Below are positions 9,401 to 26,500 of a stretch of 64,000 nt of DNA, in pieces; the first letter of the stretch is position 1; each line of letters starts with the position of its first letter. Under the pieces are notes generated by a model that ran no database searches, was not told the origin of the DNA, and worked only from the letters and a program-made list of their open reading frames with translations. The DNA is from Arabidopsis thaliana (Eukaryota; Streptophyta; Magnoliopsida; Brassicales; Brassicaceae): positions 16,307,001-16,371,000 of the forward strand of contig NC_003075.7 in the NCBI RefSeq assembly GCF_000001735.4, in the 5' to 3' direction. The translations under genes and the position numbers were made by a program.

Positions 9401-12254
9401 ACAATCTTAGAAGGATGTACACGAAAGAAGGATCTCGTCCCGAAATGCATATGGACTCTGTTAATTGGAGTGACGTGAGATTATCTGGCCAAAATGTTTT
9501 GGAAACCACCATTAAAAAACGTGGACAATTCAGGATTCTTTCAGAAAGAATATTGGTAAGAAAAACAAAACTTCTAATGAACTTTGTGAATAATTTATTC
9601 AAATGATTTAAGACTAACACTTTTTTTTTTTTCCTTGTTTTCTCAAGAAATTTCTTAACGATGAAGTTAACCAAAATGGAAATATTGATCTGGAATGGCT
9701 TCGAAATGCTCCATCACATTTAGTGAAGTATGTTTATGTTGGTTTTTATGTTCTCATAGATCTCATTATTAGTAAGCGATCATAAACTCTTTCTATTATT
9801 TTATCAGGAGATATCTGTTGGAAATCGAAGGGATAGGGCTGAAAAGTGCTGAGTGCGTACGACTGTTAGGACTTAAACATCATGCGTTTCCGGTATGAAA
9901 ATATTATTATGATTTTTCATTTAACATATATTATTAATTTTTACTGATAAAACCCATGTGTTAATGTGTAGGTTGACACAAATGTTGGTCGTATAGCAGT
10001 TCGACTAGGTCTGGTTCCTCTTGAACCTTTACCAAATGGAGTTCAAATGCATCAACTATTCGAGTTATGTTTTCTCATTAATTTGATTAAGAAAATACAT
10101 TACAAGTTACTAACAACTATCTCCTATCGATAAACATGAACTCGTTTCAGGTACCCTTCAATGGATTCGATTCAAAAGTACCTTTGGCCACGATTGTGTA
10201 AACTTCCCCAAGAAACTTTGTAAGTTCAAATGTTTTTCCTCAATTTAAGAAGCCAACTATTTTTACGCCATTTGAACACATATTACCTAATTTTATTTCT
10301 AAATATTTTTACAGATATGAACTACATTATCAAATGATAACATTTGGAAAGGTGTGCGTTACTTTTTTCTTTTTTATATTAATGAATAAAATAATATTGT
10401 TGGTTTAATCAAATTTTGTCAACTTTAGGTTTTCTGCACAAAAACTATTCCTAATTGTAATGCATGTCCAATGAAGTCAGAATGCAAATATTTTGCAAGT
10501 GCATATGTCAGGTACAATCTTTTTTCTCTTTCCTACTTTGATACTTAGATATAACTTAATTTGTTAATTCCATAAATATTAAAGAAAAATCTTAGAATAA
10601 TCATAAAAAATAATTGCTAAACGTCTCAGCTATTTTATATAATAAATTTTCTAAATATTGAGAGTGAATTTGAGTTTTAATAATTACATTATATATATAA
10701 ATATATAATGTTAGAATTGACAAATTGTGTTTTTTTTTAATAGTTCTAAAGTTCTTCTCGAGAGTCCAGAAGAAAAGATGCATGAGCCTAATACTTTTAT
10801 GAATGCACATTCTCAAGACGTTGCTGTAGATATGACATCAAATATAAATTTGGTAGAAGAATGTGTTTCTTCTGGATGTAGCGATCAAGCTATATGTTAT
10901 AAGCCACTAGTTGAGTTTCCTTCGTCCCCAAGAGCGGAAATTCCCGAGTCAACAGACATTGAAGATGTTCCATTCATGAATCTTTATCAGTCATATGCTA
11001 GTGTTCCTAAAATTGATTTTGACTTGGATGCATTGAAGAAAAGTGTAGAAGATGCACTTGTAATAAGTGGCAGGATGAGCAGTTCTGATGAAGAAATATC
11101 AAAAGCATTAGTGATTCCCACTCCTGAAAATGCATGCATTCCTATCAAACCACCTCGGAAAATGAAGTATTATAATCGACTAAGAACTGAACATGTGGTG
11201 TAAGTATCTTTATGTAAATACTGATTATACCATATAATTTATATGCATTTTTTGGGAATATATAATCTAATACTTGTTTTTTTTGCAGTTATGTGCTTCC
11301 TGATAATCATGAGCTGCTACACGATGTAAGTATACACATACTTTAAGCTACAAAAAAATGCAACTCTTTTGTATAATTAATTAGAAAATGCTTTTGGTTT
11401 TTTACATATATTATATAGTTTGAGAGAAGAAAACTTGATGATCCAAGTCCTTACCTTCTTGCGATTTGGCAACCAGGTATAATACAAGCATAATTTATCA
11501 TTGTTCACATAACTATAAACTAAATTTTTCATTCGAATAATTTTTAGGTGAAACATCATCCTCGTTCGTTCCACCAAAGAAAAAGTGTAGTTCTGATGGA
11601 TCAAAGCTTTGCAAGATAAAGAATTGTTCATATTGTTGGACTATACGAGAACAAAACTCCAACATTTTTCGCGGAACAATTTTGGTAAACAAAATTTACA
11701 ATTTGATATTTTAACATTGGTGACTTGAAACTCACATAAATTCAATTGATCAGATTCCATGTAGAACAGCAATGCGAGGGGCCTTTCCACTTAATGGAAC
11801 ATACTTCCAAACCAATGAGGCAAGCATTTTTTCTTATAATTTTTTGTCTGAGTTTTTACTTAATGGTTTTAAAGAGAACACAATGGTTTATTTTTCCAGG
11901 TTTTTGCTGATCATGAGACAAGCTTAAACCCCATTGTCTTTCGTAGGGAGTTGTGTAAGGGACTAGAAAAACGTGCACTATATTGTGGTTCAACAGTGAC
12001 ATCTATTTTTAAACTTTTAGACACAAGACGGATTGAACTTTGCTTTTGGACAGGTAACAAACATAAATATATATTAAATTTTTTGTTGAATTATGAAGTT
12101 AAAATAACTGTGGAATGTTGTGTGGTGCTGTGCAGGGTTTTTATGTTTGAGAGCATTTGATCGAAAGCAACGAGATCCAAAAGAGCTTGTCCGACGTCTA
12201 CACACTCCACCTGATGAGAGAGGGCCAAAGTTTATGAGTGATGATGATATATAG
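6411..12254 (+). CDS. DML3: DEMETER-like 5-methylcytosine DNA glycosylase/lyase
   Basis: Excises 5-methylcytosine in the nucleus to start active DNA demethylation. My 21-exon model: 6411-6603, 7014-7100, 7377-7466, 7619-8182, 8273-8410, 8532-8852, 9021-9111, 9195-9555, 9648-9727, 9808-9892, 9972-10063, 10151-10219, 10315-10351, 10429-10511, 10744-11199, 11289-11325, 11419-11476, 11548-11684, 11754-11819, 11900-12053, 12136-12254. It totals 3318 nt, 1105 residues. The N-terminus is Lys/Arg-rich. The HhH-GPD motif has GIGLKSAE with catalytic Lys near 654 and VDTNVGR with catalytic Asp near 672. The 4Fe-4S ligands are C739-x6-C746-x2-C749-x5-C755. The C-terminal demethylase domain holds KCSSDGSKLCKIKNCSYC and a FRGTILIPCRTAMRG-type fold. 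Exon 19 ends in a GC donor. Exons 2 and 3 are duplicates. Matches AT4G34060; the published protein may be slightly shorter at the N-terminus. Confidence 0.93.
7014..7466 (+). repeat. Tandemly duplicated exons 2 and 3 of DML3
   Basis: Exon 2 (7014-7100, 87 nt) and exon 3 (7377-7466, 90 nt) have the same phase and related products: both start D-x-S-Q-T, share K-NSKE-H in the middle and end S-HLQ. Introns 2 and 3 also match: both begin GTAAATA, then share TTCATT-rich and TAAGTTCATTAC segments. Stretches before each exon match too, for example TTTTGATTTTATTGATTGAGG near 6790 and near 7256. This is a genomic exon-plus-intron duplication in the disordered, basic N-terminal region. Confidence 0.75.
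11820..11899 (+). other. GC-AG intron in DML3 (intron 19)
   Basis: The exon ends ...ACCAATGAG and the next bases are GCAAGC, with no usable GT nearby. The acceptor TTTTCCAG ends at 11899. Joining gives the in-frame N-E-V-F-A-D expected in the family. AG|GCAAG is the strong consensus of GC-AG introns, which are about 1% of plant introns. Confidence 0.8.
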
Positions 12255-12411
12255 TTTCATTTTATTCTTTTTGGTCTAGTTAGCAAATTATTTAAACGAA
12301 CGAATCTTTTCTTATAATAACAAGCGATTCAACGATTGAGTAAATGCACGTACGTATTGTTTCTTGATTTAAATGCATGTACATTATAATTATTTCACAA
12401 GTGGTTTTCAT

Positions 12412-12537
12412 ATAGTAGTTGTGGATGAAAAAGAAGAGAGCCCAAGAGTTGGTCTTATGGTTATGCCTGGGTTTTGGATTGGTGGCAGTGTCATTCAAAA
12501 CCGAGTTTATGTTTCTGGTGTGAAGGTCCTTGAGTGA
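12412..12537 (+). pseudogene. Orphan C-terminal tail of a DUF641/GIL1-like gene
   Basis: Translating 12412-12537 gives 41 codons and a stop: I-V-V-V-D-E-K-E-E-S-P-R-V-G-L and then MVMPGFWIGGSVIQNRVYV, ending SGVKVLE. This is the conserved end of plant DUF641 proteins (GIL1 family), in which it follows ...SYMESVVKN-I. The body that should precede it is absent here, but a body ending exactly at VVKNI lies at 19952-21043. The tail is nearly undamaged. The next 100 bp look like its old 3'UTR. There is no start codon for it and it begins about 160 bp after the DML3 stop, so it is probably part of DML3's downstream non-coding DNA or transcript. Confidence 0.82.
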
Positions 12538-13430
12538 AGGATTTCAGGAACTGTCTTAATGCTTCTTCCCACTTTGTTGTGCAACTTTTATTTTCTCTTT
12601 GTTATAAGCAAGCCTATATGTATCAATGATACAGTATCATCTATTGTTCAAAAAAATTGGAATTAATATCTTCTTCGTCTCAACATCTTTGGGTCGATCG
12701 TTATTCGATGACAGTAGCAACTAGCGAGTCTCTTGTGATATATCCTAGCCAAGCGACCTCAAAACTTTTTTTACTTCGATTGTTGTCAGTATTTCTGTTT
12801 CAGACGTTTTTAGCAAAAAAGTTCTCATGGTGATAAAATTAGGCTTAAAACAGTATGACTCTGTCTTTAAGACTCAGTTTCAGATAGTAATAATAAAATT
12901 ACATAAACAAAGAGTGGTCATAGACGTGTATCTGTAAGTGTTGTCAGAGATCTGTTTTAGCTTCTTCTTCTAATTAATGACACACACAACATGACCATAG
13001 GCAGCAGAAAACAATTGTTATGATCGATTTAACTGATTGATTGTTCAATCTGGATATGATAGCTCACATGACAATGACTCCTGCATCAAGCAACTCTTAG
13101 TTAGATAGTCTTCTTGTGTCTCTCTTGCCACCTTTTCACTCATCAAGCAACTTGACCACTTGTATCGCTTTGCCCTCTAAAATTCTGCAATGAATCTCTC
13201 ATTATTGTATCCCCTGCTCATGCGCTTTCTCTTATAACAGCTGGAGAAGGTAGGCACTTGCATGTAAATTTTCTTACGATTTTTTTGTGTTGATTCCAGT
13301 AGTTTCATTTCATTCTCTTGAATCTTCTACTTTTTTCTCATACTTATGTTTATCACTGCAGCAAGTCATCTTGATTGAATTTTCGTGCACTGACAATATT
13401 GGATTCACAAGTATTGATTTGCTCAGCAGC
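12538..13430. other. Non-coding DNA after the DUF641 tail
   Basis: About 890 bp with no recognisable coding sequence. The first part resembles a 3'UTR (GT- and T-rich). The remainder is unassigned. Confidence 0.4.
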
Positions 13431-13431
13431 A

Positions 13432-16077
13432 ATGGAGCCATACAATGATGTTTACCATGGTATGTTTATTTATCTCTTTCAAAGCATGGAGAGATTTATT
13501 TCATTTCTAGCCCCCTGCATAGGTTAAACCAAGCTATGTTACCAAACAAATTTCTTAGGAATAGGTTTAGGCTTCAGCCTTCAGGGTAAAAAGTTTCTTG
13601 GCTCTTGATTCTGAGATTTTTGGAATTTGAAAGTTTAATCATTTCCTACACTTGTTGTAATGTGCAACGACTACTGTGGTTTTGGATATTTTTCTGTCAG
13701 TTCATAGTTTGTGATCATTTTGCGTTGGGCCAGAAATGCAAATTACAGTTAATTGTGGTTTGGTTTACATGGTTTTGAAATTGAAATTGATTTCGGTTTG
13801 GTTTACTTTGGTTTTGAAATTAAAATTGAATTTCGTTCGGTTAACAATTGGTTTTGAGAAAGAAAAAAAAAACTAAAAGAATCACGCGATGGAGAATTTG
13901 GAGAGATATGCGTCGATAAAAATTGGCATGAATTGGAAAGGGGTTTACCCACAGAATCGCCCTCACTCGCTCAACGCGCTCTTTCTGCGAGTGGGTACGA
14001 AATAGAGCCTTCTGATTGGCTTAAAAACTAAAAAAAAAGTGCAATAGTATAGTTGTTGCTAGCTATGTTATTATTTGCTTTTCGTCTTCTTCTCTAATTT
14101 TACGCAAAAACTAGATTCACGCTTTTAGATTTGGACTGGTGAGTGCTAAAATATGTATAAACCTTAATCATTGCTAATCTCTTCTTTGTTCTGGTATAAA
14201 TTTTTTGGTTGTCCTACTCTGTTTTTACTTTGTTGCCGAGTAATTTTACTAAATCTAGTAAAGCTAAGCTCGTTTGTCATGTTTAATTTGGAGCACTAAA
14301 TTGTTCTTCTTCCTCCAGTGGATGTGAATTTTATGTTTGTTCTTTATTTTCATTGTGTTGACTTGTCAGTTTTAGTGGAATGAACAAAATGAGAGTGAAA
14401 CTGAGACTAGTCGTCCTCTGTTTCTTTCAGATAAAGAGCAACCACATATACCACATTGCAAAGACTCTGTGCATGAAAAGGTTTTGTTTTCTATTCATTT
14501 TCATGTCTTTAACTCTTTGGTGTATATTAACTAAAGGAAGGAGATGGATAGTTGGATACTTAATAATACTTTATTTGTCCTGTGACACATTTTGTATCAG
14601 TTTTTTTTATTTCGTCACCTTTTTTTTTCAAACTAAGTCTAGTTGATGTTACTTCATCCCATCCCTCTGAGCTGATCTCAAACTCGAGTCCTCTTAAGTG
14701 ATGCATTCACAGAAAGAAAAAGCATATCAAGCATAGTGATCTGAAATTCAACACTTTTAGTTAACTTTACTAAACCATTTGATTGCCAAAGTATATGCTT
14801 CATAGTATTATCTAATGATGATATGAATATCTATTTGTGGCAGTAAATTTCAGAAACTTAACGAGCTGGTCCAAGATCTAAGGAGGCAGTTGCCGCAATG
14901 CAGAAATGAAAATCAGGTTGAGTTGACGAAGCTAGAAACTGAGCTTGATCAGCTGCTGTTAAGAGGTGTTCAGTCCATTTTTACAGGTACATTGTTTTCT
15001 CCTAGTACATGTGGTTGATTTCTTCTAACATATTAAAACTACTGTAAAGTGACTCATGATTGAAAGCATTCATCGACTTAACAGTTACTATTGATAAATT
15101 TTGGGATTACCTATTAATTTAGGTTTTAGATATGGTGGATGGCTAGAATCAATTTGATGCAGTAGGAGATATTGGATATGAATCTCATTGTTAGATGATC
15201 AGCTGCTACATTCATCATGTTTCACGAGTGCTTTGCTTGCTGTCTCGACCCTCGACCCTTTACTTTAGAGATTTCAATAGATCAGAAGAGAGTTAAGAGG
15301 TAGTTGACAACTTTTATAAGCTAGCCAGAGATATAATCAAGGCAAGTACCTATTTGCTTGAAGTTAAAAGGTTTCACTCTAGTTGATCATGAGTATTCTG
15401 AATTAGATCTTGGTGTGTGTGCAGGTTGATGCGTTCAACAGAGGATATCATCTTTGGAACAAATTAGAGCTCATGGTAAAATCTTCATTTTTTGGTTATG
15501 GATCATCAACTATATGTTTGGTTTTTTTTTGTAAGTGTGTAGCATTACAAAGGTGCCCAATTAGCCGATCACATATAAGCCATATATAGCTGCTTCTTTC
15601 TGTGATTGGTCAGTATGTCACCAATATAAGTATCTTGTTGGTAGCCTTTTCTGAATGTGTGCAAATTTGCGTTCTCTTTTCTTAGCTATTAACTGTACAC
15701 AGTACACATTAAAGTACTCATTTTTACTCTCATTATGAGCCACATTCTCTTCAGCTAGTAAGTAGTTCCGAAGAATTTGTTTCTCTATATAACATCACAA
15801 CATTATTTTGATATTTGGAAACTCTCTATAGGTGGACACGTTAGTCAGCCATATTGTTCTATATGTGGGTGGCGGTAATGCCCACCTAGATGTTTTGTTG
15901 GTGGCTTCTTTCACGAAAGTAGATTTCTGCTTTCACTTCCTAGCTACCAACTACATTTTTGATTCTAAAGTTTTTGATGGAGAAATATCTTACCAATCAG
16001 AGAAGAATCTCAAAATCGCCGGTGTGAATTTTGATAGAGAAATAGAGAGACGAGTCTATTTCTCTAGTAGTTAGTGG
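13432..16077 (+). pseudogene. Unidentified coiled-coil gene fragments
   Basis: Several pieces look like exons with good splice borders. 13432-13460 is a short start exon, M-E-P-Y-N-D-V-Y-H. 14844-14986 encodes a heptad-rich K-F-Q-K-L-N-E-L-V-Q-D-L segment followed by QVELTKLETELDQLLLRG. A piece ending near 15342 encodes DNFYKLARDIIK. 15425-15475 encodes VDAFNRGYHLWNKLELM. From 15832 there is VDTLVSHIVLYVGGGN, open to 16074. The pieces cannot all be joined in one frame and the exon near 15200-15342 contains stops, so the gene is probably broken. I do not recognise the family. The helix-rich, charged composition suggests a coiled-coil protein. Blocks around 14104-14330 look like a 5'UTR exon and intron, and are repeated at 18241-18480. 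Confidence 0.35.
13585..14330 (+). repeat. Duplicated non-coding blocks, left copy (order A-B)
   Basis: Block A (about 13585-14064, best conserved 13872-14064) matches about 18502-18941. Its core runs from CTAAAAGA-TCACGCGATGGAG through TTTACCCACAGAATCGCC to GTTGTTGCTAGCT, with only a few differences over about 190 bp. Block B (about 14104-14330) matches about 18241-18480, from AACTAGATTCA-GCTTTTAGATTT to TTGTTCTTCTTCCTC. In this copy A precedes B. Confidence 0.8.
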
Positions 16078-16201
16078 AGTTAGTGGCGGTGTTGAGGTAA
16101 CAACATCAAATGGTCTATAATGGCAAAAAGATGACACTATTATTCCCAAGTTTAAGAATCAAACCCAATGAATCACAACCAAAAAGGAACCAAACACTTA
16201 A

Positions 16202-16368
16202 TCACTTGGTAAGCCAAGGGTATACGTCAGGCGATGAAGGAAGCCTCGCTGTTAAAACCTCAACACCAGTCTCAGTTACCAATAGGGTATGCTCAAACTG
16301 AGCGCTGCGTTTTCCATCTGCGGTAACTGCAGTCCATCCATCAGGCCATGTTCGATCCCTCCATCCCC
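16202..16368 (-). pseudogene. Last exon of a methionine aminopeptidase 1 gene (fragment)
   Basis: On the minus strand, after an acceptor-like GATAG at 16372-16369, the frame reads [19 protein letters not shown] and then [20 protein letters not shown], ending [15 protein letters not shown] and a stop at 16204-16202. This is the C-terminal part of type 1 methionine aminopeptidase, including the metal-ligand glutamate in SAQFEHT. The upstream exons with the other metal ligands are missing, so no enzyme is made. The copy has no internal stop and is well conserved. From memory, Arabidopsis MAP1A (AT2G45240) lies close to a DUF641 gene (AT2G45260) on chromosome 2, the same pairing seen here. Confidence 0.8.
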
Positions 16369-16475
16369 CTATCATGACAATGCCCTTATGGTTGTAAATA
16401 GATAACTCAAGTATGGAGTAACAAATTTAAACATTTAACGAATGCAGTTTAAGGACATTTAACATTGAACTCAAC

Positions 16476-16570
16476 CAGTGGCGGATCCAGAAATTTTTTT
16501 TGTAGGGGGCGGCAATATATTTATATTTTATGTCTTGATTCTACTCGGTCAAGTTTAAATGATGTTATGT
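16476..16570. mobile_element. Possible transposon terminal sequence beside the TLDc gene break
   Basis: CCAGTGGCGGATCCAGAAA followed by a T run and GTAGGGGGCGGC near 16478-16520 resembles the CAGTGGCGGAxCCAG start common at the ends of plant hAT-like elements. It lies about 70-100 bp beyond the point where the TLDc gene is cut off. I could not find the matching opposite end or a target-site duplication, so this may be a solo remnant or chance. Confidence 0.25.
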
Positions 16571-16586
16571 TACAGTTGAGAAACAC

Positions 16587-17995
16587 TCACGATGTGTGTC
16601 CGAGGAATGTGTTGAAGCTTTGACCGTGTAAGGAACTGCGATACAACAGCTTCCACTCTACAAGCTCGTGGTGAGGAAGAGCTCCTCCAATATGCCAAGC
16701 GTATTCCTTCTTTAATAGTAGCCTATCTGAACTCACACTATCTTCATATAGCAGATCCGGGACTTGATATCCAGGTCTCACTATATAACAAGGTTCAGAG
16801 GATATAAAAAAGTGAAAAAAGGAAAATTTTGACCAGTTTTGTCAACAAGATATGAGTTAAAGACGAGAGAAGACAAAGAATCAACCTGGACCCGGGGGAA
16901 TAAGCAAGCTGCCGAGGAACTTTCTGATAGTTGGAACGAGTGGGCACCAGCTTCTGAAGTCTTCAAAAGACATTCCTTTTTCAGAACCATCATCAGATTT
17001 TGAGAAAGTAGCGGCATCGAGTAGCGCATCTACCATCTCCTTGTAATCACTTGATTCCGCATCAGAACTCTCAGTGGAGAACACACTCTTCAAAATCACC
17101 ACCAGGAACGACTCTAAATCAGACCTGAAGACATACTAGAATGTGTCACATTCAGAGAATAACCCCATCTAATCTAACAATCTCAATTCATTTTCTATCC
17201 AAATATGTTAAGTGGATCAAGAGACCAGTAATGGACATACAACAAAACAGGTAATGAAACTTGGATAACAGAAGCAACTTGAAGCCACAAGATGGATACC
17301 TTCTCAAGACCCCATTGCCATTAACATCCAAAGTCTGGTAAATAAACTCAGCAATCTCATCATCAGTTCCTTTCTCGTATGTTGCCTAAAAAGCAACAGG
17401 AATTGAGTTGAACACAATCGAATCTCTCAAATTCTATATCGAGTCCTAGAACTGCTAATCCTATTGAACTCTGCATTTTAAGATCTTCAAAAGCTCAGAA
17501 GAAGAAACCAAATGATTAAGAGGATAAAAAGACTTGAGTATACCTTAGCAATAACAAGATCTTCAAAAGTCATTTTATCATCTTTCCTGTGTTGAGTAAC
17601 CATATCAAAGATCCTTTCTCCTAAAGAACCACTCAGACCAAAATACTCCTGTGAAAATCGAAATCCGACACACATCGTGTAAGGCTTAATTCAAAATTAT
17701 CAACCACAAAAACCAGATGACAACAGAACACAATTTTTTTTTTGTCAAAACCTGGAAAACAGGGTACGAGACGTATTGGTCATTGCTCTGAGACTTGGAA
17801 GCGAGGGAAAAAAAGAGAGATTTGAGATCAGCGAGCTTCTTCTGAGTAAAAGCTCTGCAATAAAACACAAACACACAATTGATAAGATCGATTTTCAATT
17901 TAGAAATTAGAGAGTGAAAGTGAGATTGGTTCCGATGAAGACCTGGAAGCAGAAGTGAAGCAATGATCAACAGAAGACGAATTCGAATTTCCCTT
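16587..17995 (-). pseudogene. Truncated EF-hand/TLDc-domain gene
   Basis: Six exons on the minus strand: from 17995 down to 17943, 17752-17854, 17544-17648, 17300-17385, 16886-17124 and 16587-16780. The product reads G-N-S-N-S-S-S-V-D-H at the start, has an EF-hand-like loop D-V-N-G-N-G-V-L (exon 4), and enters a TLDc domain (LLYRSSLHGQSFNTFLG). It stops at TGA 16589-16587, about 60 residues into the TLDc domain. Family members go on for roughly 150-200 residues more. The codon where the family has its initiator Met (17995-17993) reads AAG, and no in-frame ATG lies before the upstream stop. The remaining exons have intact splice sites and no internal stop, so decay is recent or a shortened product starts elsewhere. 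Corresponds to the locus annotated as an EF-hand family protein (AT4G34070). Confidence 0.75.
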
Positions 17996-18240
17996 TTTCG
18001 CCGGGTTTTTTTCTCCCCTCAGTTCTCCGGCAGGTTTCGTCGTCTCTGTTCTTCTATTATTTTTGATTGATCTTCCACTTCTTCAAAATTACAACTTCAA
18101 CCCCTTAAAATCGAAATATTCTTAATGTACTCCATTACTTTTAATGCGTTGATCTCGAAGCAGCAGAGTAAAATATAAAAGTTGTGAGTTGAAATCACAC
18201 AAAGAACAGAAAATAAAGGGGGGCAAACACGAAGAGCTCA

Positions 18241-18941
18241 CAACTAGATTCATGCTTTTAGATTTCCACTGGTGAGTCTAATCTGTTTAATTATTGCAAT
18301 TCGTTCTTGTTCTTGTCGAATATACAGTTCTGTTTTAGTATCTTTTTTTATGTGTTCATGTCTGTTTTGACTTTGTTGCCGAGAAATTTTACTGAAACTA
18401 GTAAAGCTAAGCTCTCTGAATCGTTTTTCATGTTTAATTGAAGCAGTAGATTGTTCTTCTTCCTCTATTGGATGCCATGGAAGTAGAAATCTTCAGGATT
18501 CTTCTTGGCTTTGATTCTGAGATTTTGCAATTTGAAAGTTTAATCAAAGGCTACTGTGATTTTTTTGGATATTTTTCTATGATTTATGATTTTGAGTTGT
18601 GGTGTTTTCTCTTTTTTCCGTTGTTGAGATGTTGATAAATTTTCTGTCCAGAATTGTTGCCTCACACTATTTGCTGATTCGGTTTGGTTTGTATTGGTTT
18701 TGAAATTAAAACTGATTTCGGTTCGGTTTCATTGGTTTTGTTGAAAATAACTAAAAGAGTCACGCGATGGAGAATTTGGAGAGATGTGCGTCGATTAAAA
18801 AAGTCATGAATTGGAAAGGGGTTTACCCACAGAATCGCCCTCACTCGCTCAACGCGCTCTTTCTGCGAGTGGGTACGAAATATAGCCTTCTGATTGGCTT
18901 AAAAACTCAAAAAAAGTGCAATAGTATACTTGTTGCTAGCT
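18241..18941 (+). repeat. Duplicated non-coding blocks, right copy (order B-A)
   Basis: Block B (about 18241-18480) precedes block A (about 18502-18941; best conserved 18751-18941). Both match 13585-14330 in the same orientation but in the opposite order. That is what remains if a tandem A-B-A-B array was split by other sequence. Block A has a short ORF from ATG 18767, but the two copies differ in frame, so it is not a conserved protein. Confidence 0.8.
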
Positions 18942-19622
18942 CTTATTATTTGATAAAGTTTTGTACTTGCATCTTTTTTTTCAGTCACCGAAAGTTGGAA
19001 TTTCCTTTGTGATAAGATCTAAACAAATATCAAAGTCTACAAATGCTGGATTAAGCAAGTTAAAGCCTTTGTGATTCCCTTGTATTTTCAACAACCTCGT
19101 CTTCAAAACTTTATCCAAAGACATATGTGGATAGCCATAGCAAGCCACAGTTACATTATACAGGAAAGGTACCACCTTAAGGCTCTGCATTCCAAAGAAA
19201 ATGTCATAGTCACTTTGTTTGATATGTTTGTTCTGTGGATTGTTAACATTGGTTTATGCTTGAGTGAGGTCCCAGACAGGAAATCAAACTCACATTATGC
19301 ATGTAGCTAGTGTCGTTCTGTTGACCCTATAAAGCCTTTACTTTTACTGTAGTTAGCTTATAGTTGCATTCTTTAGGTTAGTTCTCTGCTTTACACACTT
19401 TGCAACCTAGTAGAACTTTTCTCTTATGACACCCATGGTCAATACATTGGTTGACAATAATGAAAGTGGAGCTGCTATAACATCTTTTCTTTTTATCAAG
19501 TGATTTTATGTTCGGTAATAGCTTACTGTTTCATTAACTCTGACAAACTGTTTATTATTGCACTGTCTGAACACTTAAAGATGAACAACGGACCATAATT
19601 TCACTTTCACATATATCTGCAG

Positions 19623-19730
19623 AACCTCATTGACCTGGCAGGTTCTGAAAGCTCAAAGGCTGAAACCAGTGGTTTAAGGCGCAAGGAAAGGTCTTATATA
19701 AATAAAGCTTTGCTGACTTTAGGGACTATG
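19623..19730 (+). pseudogene. Kinesin motor-domain exon fragment
   Basis: After an acceptor CTGCAG ending at 19622 the frame encodes N-L-I-D-L-A-G-S-E-S-S-K-A-E-T, then SGLRRKERSYINKALLTLGT. This is the switch II region of kinesins (DLAGSE) with the following INKSLLTLG helix, most like the plant CENP-E-like kinesin-7 group. After 19730 similarity ends and stops appear. No other motor exon was found in the flanking kilobase, so this is an isolated, captured or residual exon. Confidence 0.8.
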
Positions 19731-19951
19731 AGTTCTTGGTTATCATTGTTTTCCCCCAAGCGACAATAGTTTTTCGAATTTAAGAACCTTTTTTGCAAGT
19801 TGGATCGTTCTTTTGCAAATTTGTAGGTACTTGTTATAGTATTTGATACTCTTATTTACTTTCTGTTGGTGACATGCATAATGCTGATTTCACTGTCTCT
19901 TATATTTTTATGATCCAAACATGAAACACATACATAATCCATCCTCAACCA

Positions 19952-21043
19952 ATGGAAGAGTCTATCAATCAAAATCCTGAAGCTATGGAAGCACTTATCT
20001 CCAATCTCTTTGGAAACATCTCGTCTTTGAAATCTGCTTATATCGAGCTTCAAAGTGCTCATACTCCTTACGATCCCGAGAAGATTCAGGCAGCGGACAA
20101 AGTTGTCATTTCTGAACTCAAGAATCTTTCCGAAATGAAGCATTTTTACAGAGAGAATAACCCCAAGCCTGTATGTGTCTCTCCACAAGACTCTCGTTTA
20201 GCTGCAGAGATTCAAGAGCAGCAGAGTTTGTTGAAGACTTATGAGGTCATGGTGAAGAAGTTTCAGTCTGAGATTCAGAACAAGGATTCCGAGATCACGC
20301 AGATGCTGCAGAAGATTGAGGAAGCAAACCAGAAACGGCTTAAGCTTGAGAAGAATCTTAAGTTAAGAGGAATGTCTACAAACCAAGGTTCTGGTGGAGA
20401 TGGAAATTTACAGTTTCCTGACTTGACTACTGAACTCTTTGTATCTACTTACGAAGCTGCTGCTAAAGTTGTGCATGATTTCTCCAAGCCGCTAATCAAC
20501 ATGATGAAAGCAGCAGGATGGGATCTTGATACTGCAGCCAATTCTATTGAGCCTGATGTTGTTTACGCCAAGAGGCCTCACAAGGAATATGCATTTGAAT
20601 CATACATATGCCAAAGGATGTTCAGTGGGTTTCAGCAGAAGAACTTCTCAGTAAACTCAGAGAGTGCTACGGTTATGGCCGATGATGACACAGACACCTT
20701 TTTCCGCCAGTTTCTTGCTCTCAAGGACATGGATCCACTAGATGCTCTAGGTACAAACCCTGATTCCAACTTTGGTATATTCTGCAGGAGCAAGTAGCTC
20801 CTCTTAGTCCACCCAAAGATGGAAGCTTCTTTCTTTGGAAATCTAGACCAGCGTGACTACGTGACAGGAGGTGGCCACCCGAGGACTGCATTTTACCAGG
20901 CCTTCTTAAAACTTGCAAAGTCGATATGGATCTTGCACAAGCTTGCTTACTCTTTTGATCCAGCTGCAAAGATCTTCCAAGTGAAAAAGGGTAGTGAGTT
21001 CTCTGATTCATACATGGAAAGTGTTGTGAAGAACATACATTAA
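19952..21043 (+). pseudogene. DUF641/GIL1-like gene body, interrupted by a stop and lacking its tail
   Basis: An intronless frame from ATG 19952 runs to TAG at 20795-20797 (281 residues) and continues in the same frame to 21043 without another stop, ending SYMESVVKNI-H. It has the DUF641 N-terminal helix (AMEALISNLFGNISSLKSAY), a coiled coil (about 80-140), the middle segment (LTTELFVSTYEAA) and, beyond the TAG, FFGNLDQRDYVTGGGHPRTA. Where relatives read CRSK-Y-LLLVHPK this copy has TAG in place of the Tyr codon. The final 40 or so residues are absent but are found at 12412-12537. The N-terminus also seems about 60-70 residues short of relatives. GIL1 relatives act in light-dependent gravitropism. 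The locus corresponds to AT4G34080, usually annotated as the short 5' ORF. I judge it a recent pseudogene or a truncated gene. Confidence 0.8.
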
Positions 21044-21050
21044 TATGGAT

Positions 21051-23110
21051 TCAATCTGTGTACAAAACGAAATTAGAGATATGGTGTAATCCAGCTTCCT
21101 CATAACATTTAGCAATATGGTTTAAAGATTCGGACCAAGTTCCTTCGATAGAAGCCAAATCCAAGAGAAAAGCCGCAACATCCAACGCAACTTGGATTGG
21201 AGCTTTGCCTTTATGCAAATCTTCAAAACGACCTTCATCACTCACTTTTTCCCTTATGAATTCGATCTGCTCGTCTTCCCATTGTGCTATACTAGCAACC
21301 TCCTGCATGTTTTCAAGATACCATGACCATGAATATGTCTCTATGCTTTAAAACTCAGTACAACCGAAAAAGAAGAACAAAAAAACTTTTGTCATACCTC
21401 ATACGGACATCCTAATGTCCACCACGGTGATCTCAATGCTACCCTAGCCGCATCTTTTGCTTCTACATTCCGCCCTACCCTGCGAATAAGAATCTGAAGA
21501 TAAGTGGCTACATCTTTCTCTACGAAAATAAAATGGAGATATGTTTTAGGTATGTAAAGTTTACAAACTTCTGTAGTATGTTTGCATAATATACAAAAGG
21601 TCGTCCAAATCCTGGAAAGAGGTCTTTCTTTGTGTAAAATTCTCCTGTCACCATAGCTGAAACCTTCCATAGACAAAAAGAAGAAAATGTCCTGAAAAAG
21701 TGTCACAGAAGAGAGATTCATGATAATAGAATGTCATATCATATGCGTCAAATGTCTTACATGATCTCCTTCATCAAAATGCCGTAATACTTTCCGCTCC
21801 AACAAATCTGGAAACAGTCCAACCTAGACGATACAAAACAAAAGCAAATACTGTTTATTGTGGTGTACATAACCTTTTATCTATAAGTCATGAGTTTTTC
21901 AGTCTTGCCTTTTTCAAAACATAGACATCGAGATTGTCAATTTCAGATTCAGCAAAAGCACCCTTTTCGTAAAGTTTTTCACCTGCCTCTCCCGAAGCAC
22001 GATATAGTTCTGTCAACTCTTGTGCATCTTCTTCAACTAGAATCCGGTGAATGTATTCATCTACCTGAATATCAAAAAATGTAAGATTGTTTCTTGGTAA
22101 CACAAAAAAGACATAAATCCTCTTAAAAGGATAAGCTACGTATAAACAGAATGAGAAGTCTTTACATTTCTAGCTATAAGCCTGACTCCACTCCTCCAAA
22201 CTTCCACAACCGGCATATCCATTCTGTTCTCGAATACAAAAAAGTTAAAAACCAAGAATAACCCAACAACATATTTTTACTACTGCAAGAGTTACCAAGA
22301 AAGAGATCCAAATCTCTTACCCTGGTGGAGCAGTAGGCCATCTCAAAAGCGCAGTAACAGAGCCTACTTAGACAAAAAAAAAAACCAGAAAAACAAAACT
22401 AAAGACAAGCTCCTGGAAAAAGCTAATGGATTCTATCGAAAGTGTGGTCTTACCTGACGAATTCTTCGAAAGCGGAATAGCAAGAGGGATCAGTCCCTGC
22501 TTAGCTCCAGGAGATATGATTGTCTCACCTGCAGAAGATATATGAAGCAACTGAGACTTTAAGAACCATAAGTTTCCCTTTCTCCATTATTACAAATCCA
22601 GAATAAGTGATGAAAAGAAACGAATACATAAGTTTGGACATAAATGAGGAACAAAATTGAGCATTATTTTACCTCTTGTTTGAAGCACTTTGAGTAAGTG
22701 ATGAAGATGCATTGGAGGTTCAGTGGCAGCAACATCTTTGATAAATGATACATGCCCTACACAACAACGCTAATCTTAAGTCAATCCCAATGTGTCTCTT
22801 TGGAAGAATTATTACACATTCTTTTGTTAATTTGTTGTCTCCACCAAGAATAATCAAAAAGACAGTCATAGTCACTGCATTTTCCTACAAAAGATTGTTC
22901 TAAAATACTCAACAAAGATATAAGCTCAAGCATTTTCTCGATTTGAAAAGCCATCAAACAATCGACAATTACTATAATTCGACAATCACATGCAATTCTC
23001 ACAAACGGAGGAAAAACGAAATTACCAGAAGAGCAACAAGAGACTCTAGCTCTGAAATGGCGTATAGGGAGAGCAGTAGAGGGAGTTATGTGCATCGAAA
23101 TCGAACCCAT
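21051..23110 (-). CDS. Plastid-type protein of unknown function (ten exons)
   Basis: Minus strand from ATG 23110. Exons 23026-23110, 22673-22756, 22454-22528, 22321-22363, 22166-22223, 21909-22064, 21761-21823, 21565-21663, 21398-21517, 21051-21302 total 1035 nt, 344 residues. The borders of exons 8 and 9 are the least certain. The first 35 residues (MGSISMHITPSTALPIRHFR...) are Ser/Arg/Thr-rich with few acids, like a chloroplast transit peptide. The body contains WPTAPPGMDMPVVEVWRSGV, VGLFPDLLERKVLRHFDEGD, LIRRVGRNVEAKDAARVALRSPWW and a helical C-terminus (VALDVAAFLLDLASIEGTW). I know no enzymatic motif in it. It matches the locus annotated AT4G34090 (cyclin delta-3), a name the sequence does not justify. 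Intron 6 uses a GC donor. The stop lies only 7 bp from the end of the convergent DUF641 remnant. Confidence 0.85.
21824..21908 (-). other. GC-AG intron in the plastid-type gene (intron 6)
   Basis: On the minus strand the exon ends TTGAAAAAG and is followed by GCAAGACTG. The acceptor GTCTAG precedes GTTGGACTG. Joining gives VLKK-VGLFPDLL. Reading through the donor reaches a stop within eight codons and no GT is available nearby, so GC is the donor. It is the second clear GC-AG intron in the window. Confidence 0.75.
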
Positions 23111-23249
23111 GGCTTCTTCTTATCTCTCTATCTTTCTCTTCACTCTGCTTCCTCAACCTCACAGAATTTTCGTAATTCAGCAGTAGCAGCAAAAGATAGC
23201 CATTGATTTTGTTTCTGATTCAGCAAAAAAAAAAGAAAAAAAAATGAGA

Positions 23250-23279
23250 TGGGCTTAGTCTGTTACAATTTAAGGCCCA
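23250..23279. promoter_or_regulatory. Paired site II motifs in the bidirectional promoter
   Basis: TGGGCT at 23250-23255 and AGGCCCA at 23273-23279 lie in the 479-bp interval between the divergent ATGs at 23110 and 23590. Site II (TGGGCC/T) motifs bind TCP factors and are common in promoters of plastid and housekeeping genes. Use by one or both genes is inferred. Confidence 0.45.
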
Positions 23280-23589
23280 AACCCAACAAAGACTAAAGAC
23301 GCGTAACCGACAAAAACCGTCATTAAATGTGCAAGAGGGAAGGTCAATTTCGTCAACTACCGGTTTACAAGACCCGGTTAGGCCTACCATATAATCAATT
23401 TTCTCGGTGTCTTTGATTTTTTTTCCGATCTTTTTCTATTTTAATTCTCGAGGATAATAATTATTCGCGATAGACGACGCCTTTCCTCTTAGCTCGGCGT
23501 TATCAGACTCACCGAGTCGACTCGCTCCGCCGTTGCCGTCTCCGTTACCACCGTCTGCGCAATACGTAATTCATAGCCCGGATTTCTCT

Positions 23590-26500
23590 ATGGAGATTTC
23601 CCCGGCCGATTCGTTGTCCATCTCTGGCGCGGCTGCTTCTGAGGTCGTCTCCGAGCCTTCCGTATCTTCTTCTTCTTCCTCTTCCTCGCCGAATCAGGCA
23701 TCACCCAATCCTTTCTCAAACATGGATCCTGCAGTTTCGACGGCGACAGGATCGAGGTACGTTGATGATGACGAAGATGAAGAGGACGTTTGCAGGATCT
23801 GCAGAAATCCTGGTGATGCAGACAATCCGCTTCGGTATCCGTGTGCCTGTAGCGGAAGTATCAAATTTGTTCACCAGGATTGTCTCCTTCAGTGGCTTAA
23901 TCACAGCAACGCTCGTCAATGCGAGGTTTTGTTTCTTTTCCTCTTTATTATTTGATTGTTGAGATTTTGAAGATTCGTATTCTAATTAAGATCTGGATTC
24001 GTGTTGATTTGAATGCCTTTTAGGAATTTTGATATGGGTAAATGAATGGGCAATTGCATATTTCTGTGTGCTCATATTCAACGTTGACAGTTTAAAGTCT
24101 TCTCTTTTAATATGTGTTTCTTAAGTAGGAGTTCCACATAGAAGAGAACACGTGCTTATTGTTAATTTCATCTCTGCAGGTTTGCAAGCATCCTTTTTCA
24201 TTCTCCCCAGTATATGCTGACAATGCTCCGTCAAGGCTCCCTTTCCAGGAGTTTGTAGTTGGCATTGCTATGAAAGCTTGCCATGTTTTACAGTTCTTTC
24301 TGCGGTTGAGTTTTGTGCTTTCTGTCTGGCTTCTCACTATACCTTTCATTACATTTTGGATATGGCGTTTGGCTTTCGTGCGAACTTTTGGTGAAGCTCA
24401 AAGGTTGTTCTTAAGCCACATCTCCACCACAGTAATTCTCACTGATTGCTTGCATGGGTTCTTACTATCTGCAAGTATTGTCTTCATCTTCCTTGGAGCT
24501 ACTTCATTAAGGGACTACTTTAGGCACTTACGAGAGCTTGGGGGACAAGAAGAGAGAGATGATGATGTGGACAGAAATGGTGCTCGTGCTGCAAGAAGAC
24601 CTGCTGGACAGGCTAATAGGAATCTTGCTGGAGAGGGGAATGGTGAAGATGCTGGGGATCAGGGTGCTGCGGTTGGTCAGATTGCTAGAAGGAATCCTGA
24701 AAATGTTCTGGCAAGGTTGGACATACAAGCAGCTCGTCTTGAGGCTCAGGTTGAACAGATGTTTGATGGGTTGGATGACGCTGATGGTGCAGAAGACGTT
24801 CCATTTGATGAGCTGGTTGGAATGCAAGGTCCAGTGTTTCATTTGGTTGAGAATGCCTTTACTGTAAGTTGATGTTTCTACTTTTTGGCAATGTATATTT
24901 TAAATTCTATGTTCCTTCTTCTTCACTATTGGCCCTTATTAAATCTTCATGATGTGCATAATTTTGCAGGTTCTAGCAAGCAATATGATATTCCTTGGTG
25001 TTGTTATCTTCGTGCCCTTTACCTTGGGACGGATTATATTGTATCACGTGTCATGGCTTTTTGCTGCTGCTAGAGGCCCTGCTGTGGCTGCATCATTGCA
25101 TCTTACAGATACCGGACTCTCATTGGAAAATATTACTCTGAAGAGTGCGCTGACTGCTGTCTCGAATTTGACTAGCGAGGGCCAAGGAAATGGGCTGCTT
25201 GGTCAGCTCACTGAAATGATGAAAGTCAACGGAAGTGAATTGAATGGAGCAAACAATACGCTATCAGTTGCTACTGATCTCCTGAAAGGTTCTACTGTTG
25301 GGGCCTCAAAGCTTTCTGATATTACAACTCTGGCTGTTGGGTACATGTTTATCGTATTTCTGGTGTTCCTTTACCTTGGGATCATTGCACTGATTCGATA
25401 TGCCAAGGGTGAGCCACTGACTGTTGGAAGATTTTATGGTATTGCATCTATAGTAGAAGCTGTACCATCCCTCCTTAGACAGTTCTTGGCAGCAATGAGG
25501 CATCTGATGACCATGATCAAAGTTGCCTTTCTTTTGGTCATCGAGCTTGGGGTCTTTCCTCTGATGTGTGGTTGGTGGCTAGATGTTTGCACTGTTAGGA
25601 TGTTCGGTAAAACAATGTCCCACAGGGTACAGTTTTTATCAATTTCTCCTCTGGCAAGCTCACTTGTTCATTGGGTTGTTGGAATCATGTACATGTTGCA
25701 AATAAGCATCTTCGTCAGCCTTCTTCGAGGGGTACTGTGTTGTCCCTACTCATTTTCATTCTAGAAATAGTTTTTTTCGCTGCTGCTATCTAAATATATC
25801 TTTTCACTTTGTGCCAATTGCAGGTTCTTCGTCCTGGAGTTCTGTATTTCCTTCGTGATCCAGCAGATCCTAATTACAATCCATTCCGAGATTTGATTGA
25901 TGATCCAGTGCACAAGCATGCTCGGAGGGTACTGTTATCAGTTGCAGTGTATGGAAGTTTGATTGTGATGCTGGTATTTTTACCAGTCAAACTTGCGATC
26001 CGGATGGCTCCTTCAATCTTTCCACTTGACATATCGTAAGAAATATTGACTAACCTCTTGTTTTTGGAGATTTTGTGTTTGATTAGGTCTTTCCTAACTT
26101 GGGCATATATGCAGTGTATCCGACCCATTCACTGAGATTCCCGCCGACATGCTTCTGTTTCAAATATGCATTCCATTTATCATCGAGCATTTCAGACTTC
26201 GGACCACAATTAAGTCCCTTCTACGCTGCTGGTTCACTGGGGTTGGTTGGGCGCTTGGTTTAACAGACTTCCTCTTGCCAAGACCAGAAGACAACATTGG
26301 TCAGGACAATGGAAATGGTGAACCAGGAAGGCAGAACAGAGCACAAGTGTTGCAGGTCGGAGGACCTGACAGGGCCATGGCTGCGCTTCCAGTAGCTGAT
26401 GACCCTAACAGAAGTCGCCTCCGTGCTGGGAATGTCAACACGGGTGAGGAATATGAAGATGATGACGAACAATCTGATTCTGAGTAAGTTCTTACTTTAA

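Follow-up and report, generated by a model that had tools for sequence, protein, structure and literature searches.

How can the two parts of one gene lie on the same strand of a chromosome with the end of the gene upstream of its beginning? A DUF641 gene on chromosome 4 of Arabidopsis thaliana raises this question. It lies in the 64,000-bp stretch of DNA that we analysed (C4:16307001-16371000, hereafter the window; positions given without a chromosome are window positions). A first-pass annotation had read a body and an upstream tail of one DUF641 gene, both on the plus strand. It had offered two explanations: tandem copies with complementary losses, or excision and re-integration of a circular segment opened inside the gene.

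The swapped gene copy and its donor

An intact gene on chromosome 2 (C2:18664471-18665880, minus strand) carries both parts contiguously in a single open frame of 401 codons, with a DUF641 domain at residues 8-134 and a GIL1_IRKI_C domain at residues 341-393. We take this donor to be At2g45260, and the other loci concerned presumably bear the names At2g45240, At4g34060 to At4g34090, At4g33320 and At4g36100. The gene body in the window (19938-21037, plus strand) matched C2:18664781-18665880 (minus strand) at 97.5% over 1100 nt, with 27 mismatches and no gap, and homology began 14 bp upstream of the ATG (19952). The tail block (12416-12913, plus strand) comprised the last 40 codons, the 3' end of the gene and the native chromosome-2 3' flank, extending 376 bp beyond the stop codon (12535-12537). 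Its portion at 12416-12740 corresponded to C2:18664471-18664782 (minus strand; 92.9% with indels, 8/311 substitutions), and the whole block aligned at 94.2% over 498 columns with C2:18659005-18659488 (minus strand).

Taken by itself, the window body gave a Pfam match to DUF641 (E = 4.8e-47), and the tail by itself matched GIL1_IRKI_C (E = 3.5e-7, 30.6 bits against a cut-off of 27); these E-values and the lengths of the matches exclude chance similarity. The genome held 12 Pfam matches to DUF641 (12/12 candidates scored), with the window body and C2:18665465-18665845 tied at the top. In the window the two domains stood in reversed order, separated by 7.4 kb, and the cut in the gene lay inside GIL1_IRKI_C. 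We thus confirmed that 19938-21037 and 12416-12913 are parts of a single DUF641/GIL1-type gene copy in swapped order, as the annotation had read them. The body is no longer an intact frame because of a nonsense codon at 20795-20797 (TAT to TAG); relative to the donor, 24 codons had changed (13 silent, 10 amino-acid and 1 nonsense).

Separate origins of the two pieces, which the annotation had named as the outcome that would overturn its reading, were not indicated. Body and tail were equally distant from the intact gene (27/1100, or 2.45%, and 8/311, or 2.57%; chi-square p = 0.91).

Insertion points

The left breakpoint (12415..12416) joins target DNA to donor DUF641 sequence within GIL1_IRKI_C, and the right breakpoint (21037..21038) joins donor DUF641 sequence to target DNA; the stop codon that closes the right neighbour's open frame (21051-21053) is 13 bp away. 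Across the cut the donor reads ...GTGAAGAACATAGTTGTGGATG. The right end of the insert reads ...GTGAAGAACATA and is followed by target CATTAATATGG, and at the left end target ...TTTTCATATAG is followed by TAGTTGTGGATG. The two outer breakpoints are therefore one donor position, with an overlap of 2 bp (TA) and no gap. The earlier claim that the tail begins exactly where the body stops held in that the pieces are complementary, with this overlap, but its limits had to be moved: the body occupies 19938-21037 and the tail starts at 12416. Positions 21038-21043, previously assigned to the body, are not part of the gene, as homology stops at 21037.

This coincidence bears directly on the proposal that chromosome 4 once carried two tandem copies, of which the first lost its body and the second its tail. 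Such losses would produce the same order, but two independent breakpoints would have to coincide, for which the chance is 5/8622 (~6e-4) if they are uniform over the unit and 5/1425 (~0.35%) if both are confined to the gene. The lost halves would also have vanished from the window nearly without remnant, given that 0/1085 15-mers of the body and 2/483 of the tail recur there. With that coincidence and no remnant of a second body in the window, we disfavour complementary losses and consider them very improbable. For a ring that was cut once and inserted, complementary ends follow with nothing more to assume.

The last exon of the left neighbour gene, a DEMETER-like gene that we take to be DML3, was undisturbed (12138..12254, plus strand; Pfam RRM_DME, E = 4.9e-6, 27.1 bits, below the cut-off of 34.6) and ends 161 bp ahead of the insertion. 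A genome search found no second copy of the flanks at 12240-12415 and 21038-21400. At the cut, target flank and donor showed no homology, the local scores being 13 and 14 against shuffle means of 14.8 and 14.3, and guidance of the insertion by target-site homology was dropped, as the flanks contained none. Because the insertion lies 13 bp past the stop codon of the right neighbour (21038-21053), the 3' untranslated region of that gene is probably inserted DUF641 DNA in antisense.

Composition of the insert

The tail block is followed by 3.2 kb (12914..16094) that is foreign to the order on chromosome 2, where 5 bp (CAACA) stand in its place. This stretch contains kinesin pieces (12912-13097 and 13202-13506), a promoter-like module with gene G2 (13595-15432), a piece from C5:1.808 Mb (15429-15960) and a piece from C2:18656 kb (15993-16058). 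Next comes the 3' end of a methionine aminopeptidase 1 gene (16095..16473, minus strand), which matched C2:18658634-18658999 at 94.7% with 5/365 substitutions. Its 65-aa translation had no Pfam match and was identified by phmmer (E = 4.7e-22). On chromosome 2 the end of this gene lies just past the 5 bp that follow the equivalent of 12913, and the gene carries on from there, with Peptidase_M24 at C2:18658245-18658628; it is the native neighbour of the DUF641 3' end.

Downstream of the tail, then, the donor's neighbours keep the order and orientation that they have in the donor. That is, the whole chromosome-2 block is rotated, and a block that ran from ATG through body, cut, tail and flank to the aminopeptidase end now runs from tail through flank and aminopeptidase end to, farther on, the body. 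The annotation had taken the decayed mosaic between the gene pieces to be the duplicated or re-inserted segment. The presence of the donor's neighbour gene end inside it upholds this in part, but the mosaic also contains fragments of several other loci.

The remainder begins with 54 bp of filler (16474..16527) at the proposed circle joint, which was spanned nowhere else in the genome (4 matches, window included). After the filler come an EF-hand/TLD-type gene segment (16528..18120, minus strand; 93% to C5:1903384-1904965), a second copy of the promoter-like module (18139..18951) and rearranged kinesin fragments (18947..19909, plus strand; C5:2.0516-2.0551 Mb), and then the 14 bp before the DUF641 ATG. 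The TLD match (E = 8.6e-5, 23.0 bits) fell just below its cut-off of 24.5, and the Kinesin match (E = 1.2e-7) came from a 46-aa reading inside 19600-19740. One kinesin gene (C5:2.051-2.055 Mb) has pieces on both sides of the mosaic (12912-13506 and 18947-19909), out of order. The EF-hand/TLD-type segment is presumably At4g34070. As this locus would lie inside the inserted mosaic, the antisense pair At4g34070/At4g34071 (16240-18010) may have come about through the insertion. From this pair, a passage of PMC3439971 describes nat-siRNAs and a 30-nt small RNA.

An interior of this kind is also what break repair by copying would leave. In such filler-type repair, a chromosome-4 break would have been extended from one end or from both by copying chromosome 2 and other templates, with switches among them from tail position p to body position p and with no circle. 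Such copying would account for a patchwork from several loci and for adjoining pieces that overlap by a few bp (12912/12913, 15429/15432, 15176/15181), but nothing in it makes the first and last copied base identical, and both ends would have had to pick one donor base without homology. We regard repair copying as unlikely.

Retroposition and transposons with fixed ends fit poorly. A retrocopy of a spliced mRNA was rejected because the copy goes 376 bp beyond the stop codon and then, past the 3.2-kb insert, into an oppositely oriented neighbour gene; the piece of that neighbour reaches a splice-site-like GTGAGT, from which we infer an intron. Helitrons have fixed ends (TC...CTRR with a hairpin) and an AT target, but here both insert ends are DUF641 coding sequence, the flanking bases are G and C, and related loci end elsewhere. 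Pack-MULEs and other terminal-inverted-repeat transposons have terminal inverted repeats and a target-site duplication, but of 3 short inverted pairs in 10000-24000, 0 lay at the insert ends, and the insert flanks had no long target duplication. The module forms a direct repeat within the window (13866-14037 and 18744-18915, 95%). Campbell-like integration at this repeat was dropped because the tree gives the two modules different sources: module 1 falls beside C5:1.619 (support 100), module 2 among chromosome-4/2 copies.

The module is itself of interest. The segment at 13785-14085 had 40 matches in the genome, both window copies included (39/39 candidates scored): 13 on the right of chromosome 4, 11 on the left of chromosome 3, 11 on the right of chromosome 2, 4 on the left of chromosome 5 and 1 on the left of chromosome 2. 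None of the 40 was on chromosome 1, and 39/40 lay no more than 3.5 Mb from a chromosome end, a cut-off that was set after looking. The other mosaic donors came largely from the same arms. A core of CACGCGAT, ATTGG and TGTTGCTAGCT was conserved across 16 aligned copies, and at several chromosome-5 loci the module stands between divergent genes. Rather than a classic transposon, the module may be a promoter that spreads.

Related loci and age

The joint between kinesin and DUF641 (19937/19938) was common to two other chromosome-4 loci, C4:16057085-16059658 and C4:17081012-17082883. The EF-module-kinesin block of the window (EF-hand/TLD-type segment, module and kinesin pieces) has no close sister outside chromosome 4. 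The locus at C2:18.498 carries EF-module-kinesin sequence up to the joint, without DUF641, and differed from the window by 4.6% (EF), 6.3% (module-kinesin) and 3.0% (kinesin). The module-kinesin segment of the window was 5.1% from C2:18.659 and 5.0% from C2:18.701, against 3.5% and 4.2% from the two chromosome-4 copies. A direct duplication of 930 bp (95%) lies near the copy at C4:16.058 Mb, as does a perfect 171-bp tandem repeat (in C4:16042001-16046253 and 16055306-16055644).

One chromosome-2 locus, C2:18658634-18661216, holds equivalents of window 17664-19250, 20917-21037, 12416-12913 and 16095-16473 in that order, and it was first taken as a clean sister permutation and as proof of a circle. 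This reading was weakened, as the part equivalent to 12416-16473 is simply the native chromosome-2 order. The joint 19250-CCAT-20917 of this locus and a C-to-T change were common to C2:18.703 Mb, and a module tree set the three chromosome-4 copies apart from C2:18.659 (support 98). The EF-module-kinesin block of this locus may have been acquired in a separate event, in which case the locus would not be a clean sister of the circle. We did not count it as proof because its association of that block with DUF641 may be independent.

On chromosome 2 the DUF641 3' end is also directly repeated over 431 bp (99.1%), at C2:18659178-18659607 and 18664471-18664901, and between the copies lie 3.25 kb of other mosaic and an EF-module-kinesin block. 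The two 3' ends are 2/311 apart in the tail, each is 8/311 from the window, and both are without 14 bp of the window; for these reasons the repeat looks younger than the window copy, or homogenised by gene conversion. The intervening C2:18661217-18664470 is a second patchwork with 74-bp direct repeats (98.6%) about 1 kb apart, and its best relatives, at C4:17.94 Mb (93%), C3:1.53 Mb (95%) and C4:17.82 Mb (94%), are on the same arm ends.

With this arrangement, a linear fragment that began in the tail of one DUF641 copy and stopped in the body of the following one could have moved from a chromosome-2 tandem array to chromosome 4. On chromosome 2 the presumed AT2G45260 is indeed followed, at a distance of 5 kb, by a second DUF641 3' end with native flank, and EF-module-kinesin sequence lies between them. 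That the fragment should measure exactly one unit (2-bp overlap) would, however, be a coincidence, the counts above make the tandem arrangement look more recent than the window copy unless gene conversion homogenised it, and the 3.25 kb between the chromosome-2 copies is unlike the window interior. A linear copy is in our judgement decidedly unlikely. Tandem duplication and deletion in the compared locus can nevertheless mimic a rotated pattern, as a section of PMC7188851 points out, and the corresponding false-positive arrangement, a swapped block on both sides of another block, exists here in the DUF641 3' end that occurs twice on chromosome 2, a duplication that looks younger than the window copy. 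Chiefly because the pattern can be imitated, and the repeat is younger or homogenised, we hold our confidence in a circle to a modest preference.

The 3' flank differed from chromosome 2 by 7/173 substitutions, and divergence was homogeneous across tail, flank, aminopeptidase end and body (pooled 47/1949, p = 0.30). At a mutation rate of 7e-9 per site and year, the pooled value gives an age for the insert of only roughly 1.7 million years. A passage of PMC3756979 places the split from A. lyrata 5-10 million years ago, so the insertion would be expected to be absent from that species. The same paper gives At4g34080 as a parental gene of a newer duplicate, with the partner unnamed; this fits C4:16.058 Mb being a later copy.

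Discussion

Within the one A. thaliana reference genome from which we drew the argument, the reading that we somewhat prefer is that 12416-21037 is a single insertion of formerly circular, probably chimeric DNA, which would have joined chromosome 4 without homology. Of the annotation's two explanations, this favours circular re-integration, because the outer breakpoints coincide within 2 bp, divergence is equal and the order swap includes the gene's neighbours. In the proposed course of events, a circle, probably chimeric, would have been closed by end joining. It would have contained a chromosome-2 block in which 19938-21037 ran on into 12416-16473, joined at 19937/19938 and at 16473/16528 to the block of EF/TLD segment, module and kinesin pieces; the 3.2-kb insert could have been present already or been gained later. 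The circle would then have opened once, between DUF641 body and tail, and entered the gap between the DEMETER-like gene and the right neighbour by non-homologous end joining.

The donor blocks stand in the recipient in swapped order and the same direction, as in a circularly permuted duplication, and the swapped border has no gap or sizeable overlap (2 bp), the further mark of such events given in part of PMC7188851. Against a circle we counted that the joint 16473/16528 is present only in the window, genome-wide; that the 3.2-kb insert and the 54-bp filler demand additional steps; and that we found no close source of the EF-module-kinesin block.

Circle-mediated, rotated insertions have already been described in yeast, humans and, reportedly, cattle. 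Colour sidedness in cattle was reportedly traced by Durkin et al. in 2012 to serial translocation by circular intermediates, in which a circle from one chromosome is said to have been inserted, rotated and chimeric, into another, involving hundreds of kb and a coat phenotype. The present insert is likewise rotated and chimeric, but it is a decayed gene copy without known effect. The Arabidopsis mutants considered last below are presumably of the window's own species.

The eccDNA-mediated duplications of the human genome (Takahashi and Innan 2020, PMC7188851) were, in the cases that the relevant section presents, likewise inserted elsewhere, rotated and in the same direction, with no gap at the rotated border. 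They span 20-130 kb, whereas the insert here is a chimeric 8.6 kb in a plant; its opening point falls within a coding domain, and the donor gene is intact. The 17-kb Z. bailii region B of wine yeasts (Galeote et al. 2011, PMC3053389), as portrayed in part of that paper, shares the circular permutation, a gene broken at the opening point and junctions with 0 or 2-3 bp in common. Unlike the present insert, that region is foreign DNA, has a functional replication origin and was inserted several times with different openings; here there is one opening point and one insertion. In Arabidopsis epigenetic mutants, a portion of PMC10462705 reports circular DNA and chimeric insertions, one of which duplicated a gene. 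Those events were new and tied to transposons, with large duplications that had no matching circle, whereas ours is a fixed locus of the reference genome with no transposon ends. In the open-licence literature searched we recognised no natural plant case of rotated or circle-mediated duplication.

A lasting chromosomal effect of plant circular DNA is hard to show, though circles are readily sequenced. We suggest, tentatively and as a rather improbable extension, that a natural multi-fragment circle, with contributions of chromosome 2 and of one or more further distal loci, reached the germ line of a plant with a small genome, and that the same kind of circle traffic may explain why the module and the gene fragments attached to it are nearly confined to four arm ends. 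Since one reference genome suffices here to name the donor gene, the opening point and the insertion point, the circle model is testable in relatives and accessions. 'Fragment genes' like the annotated DUF641 copy may have been rotated, so that the part they lack is to be sought upstream.
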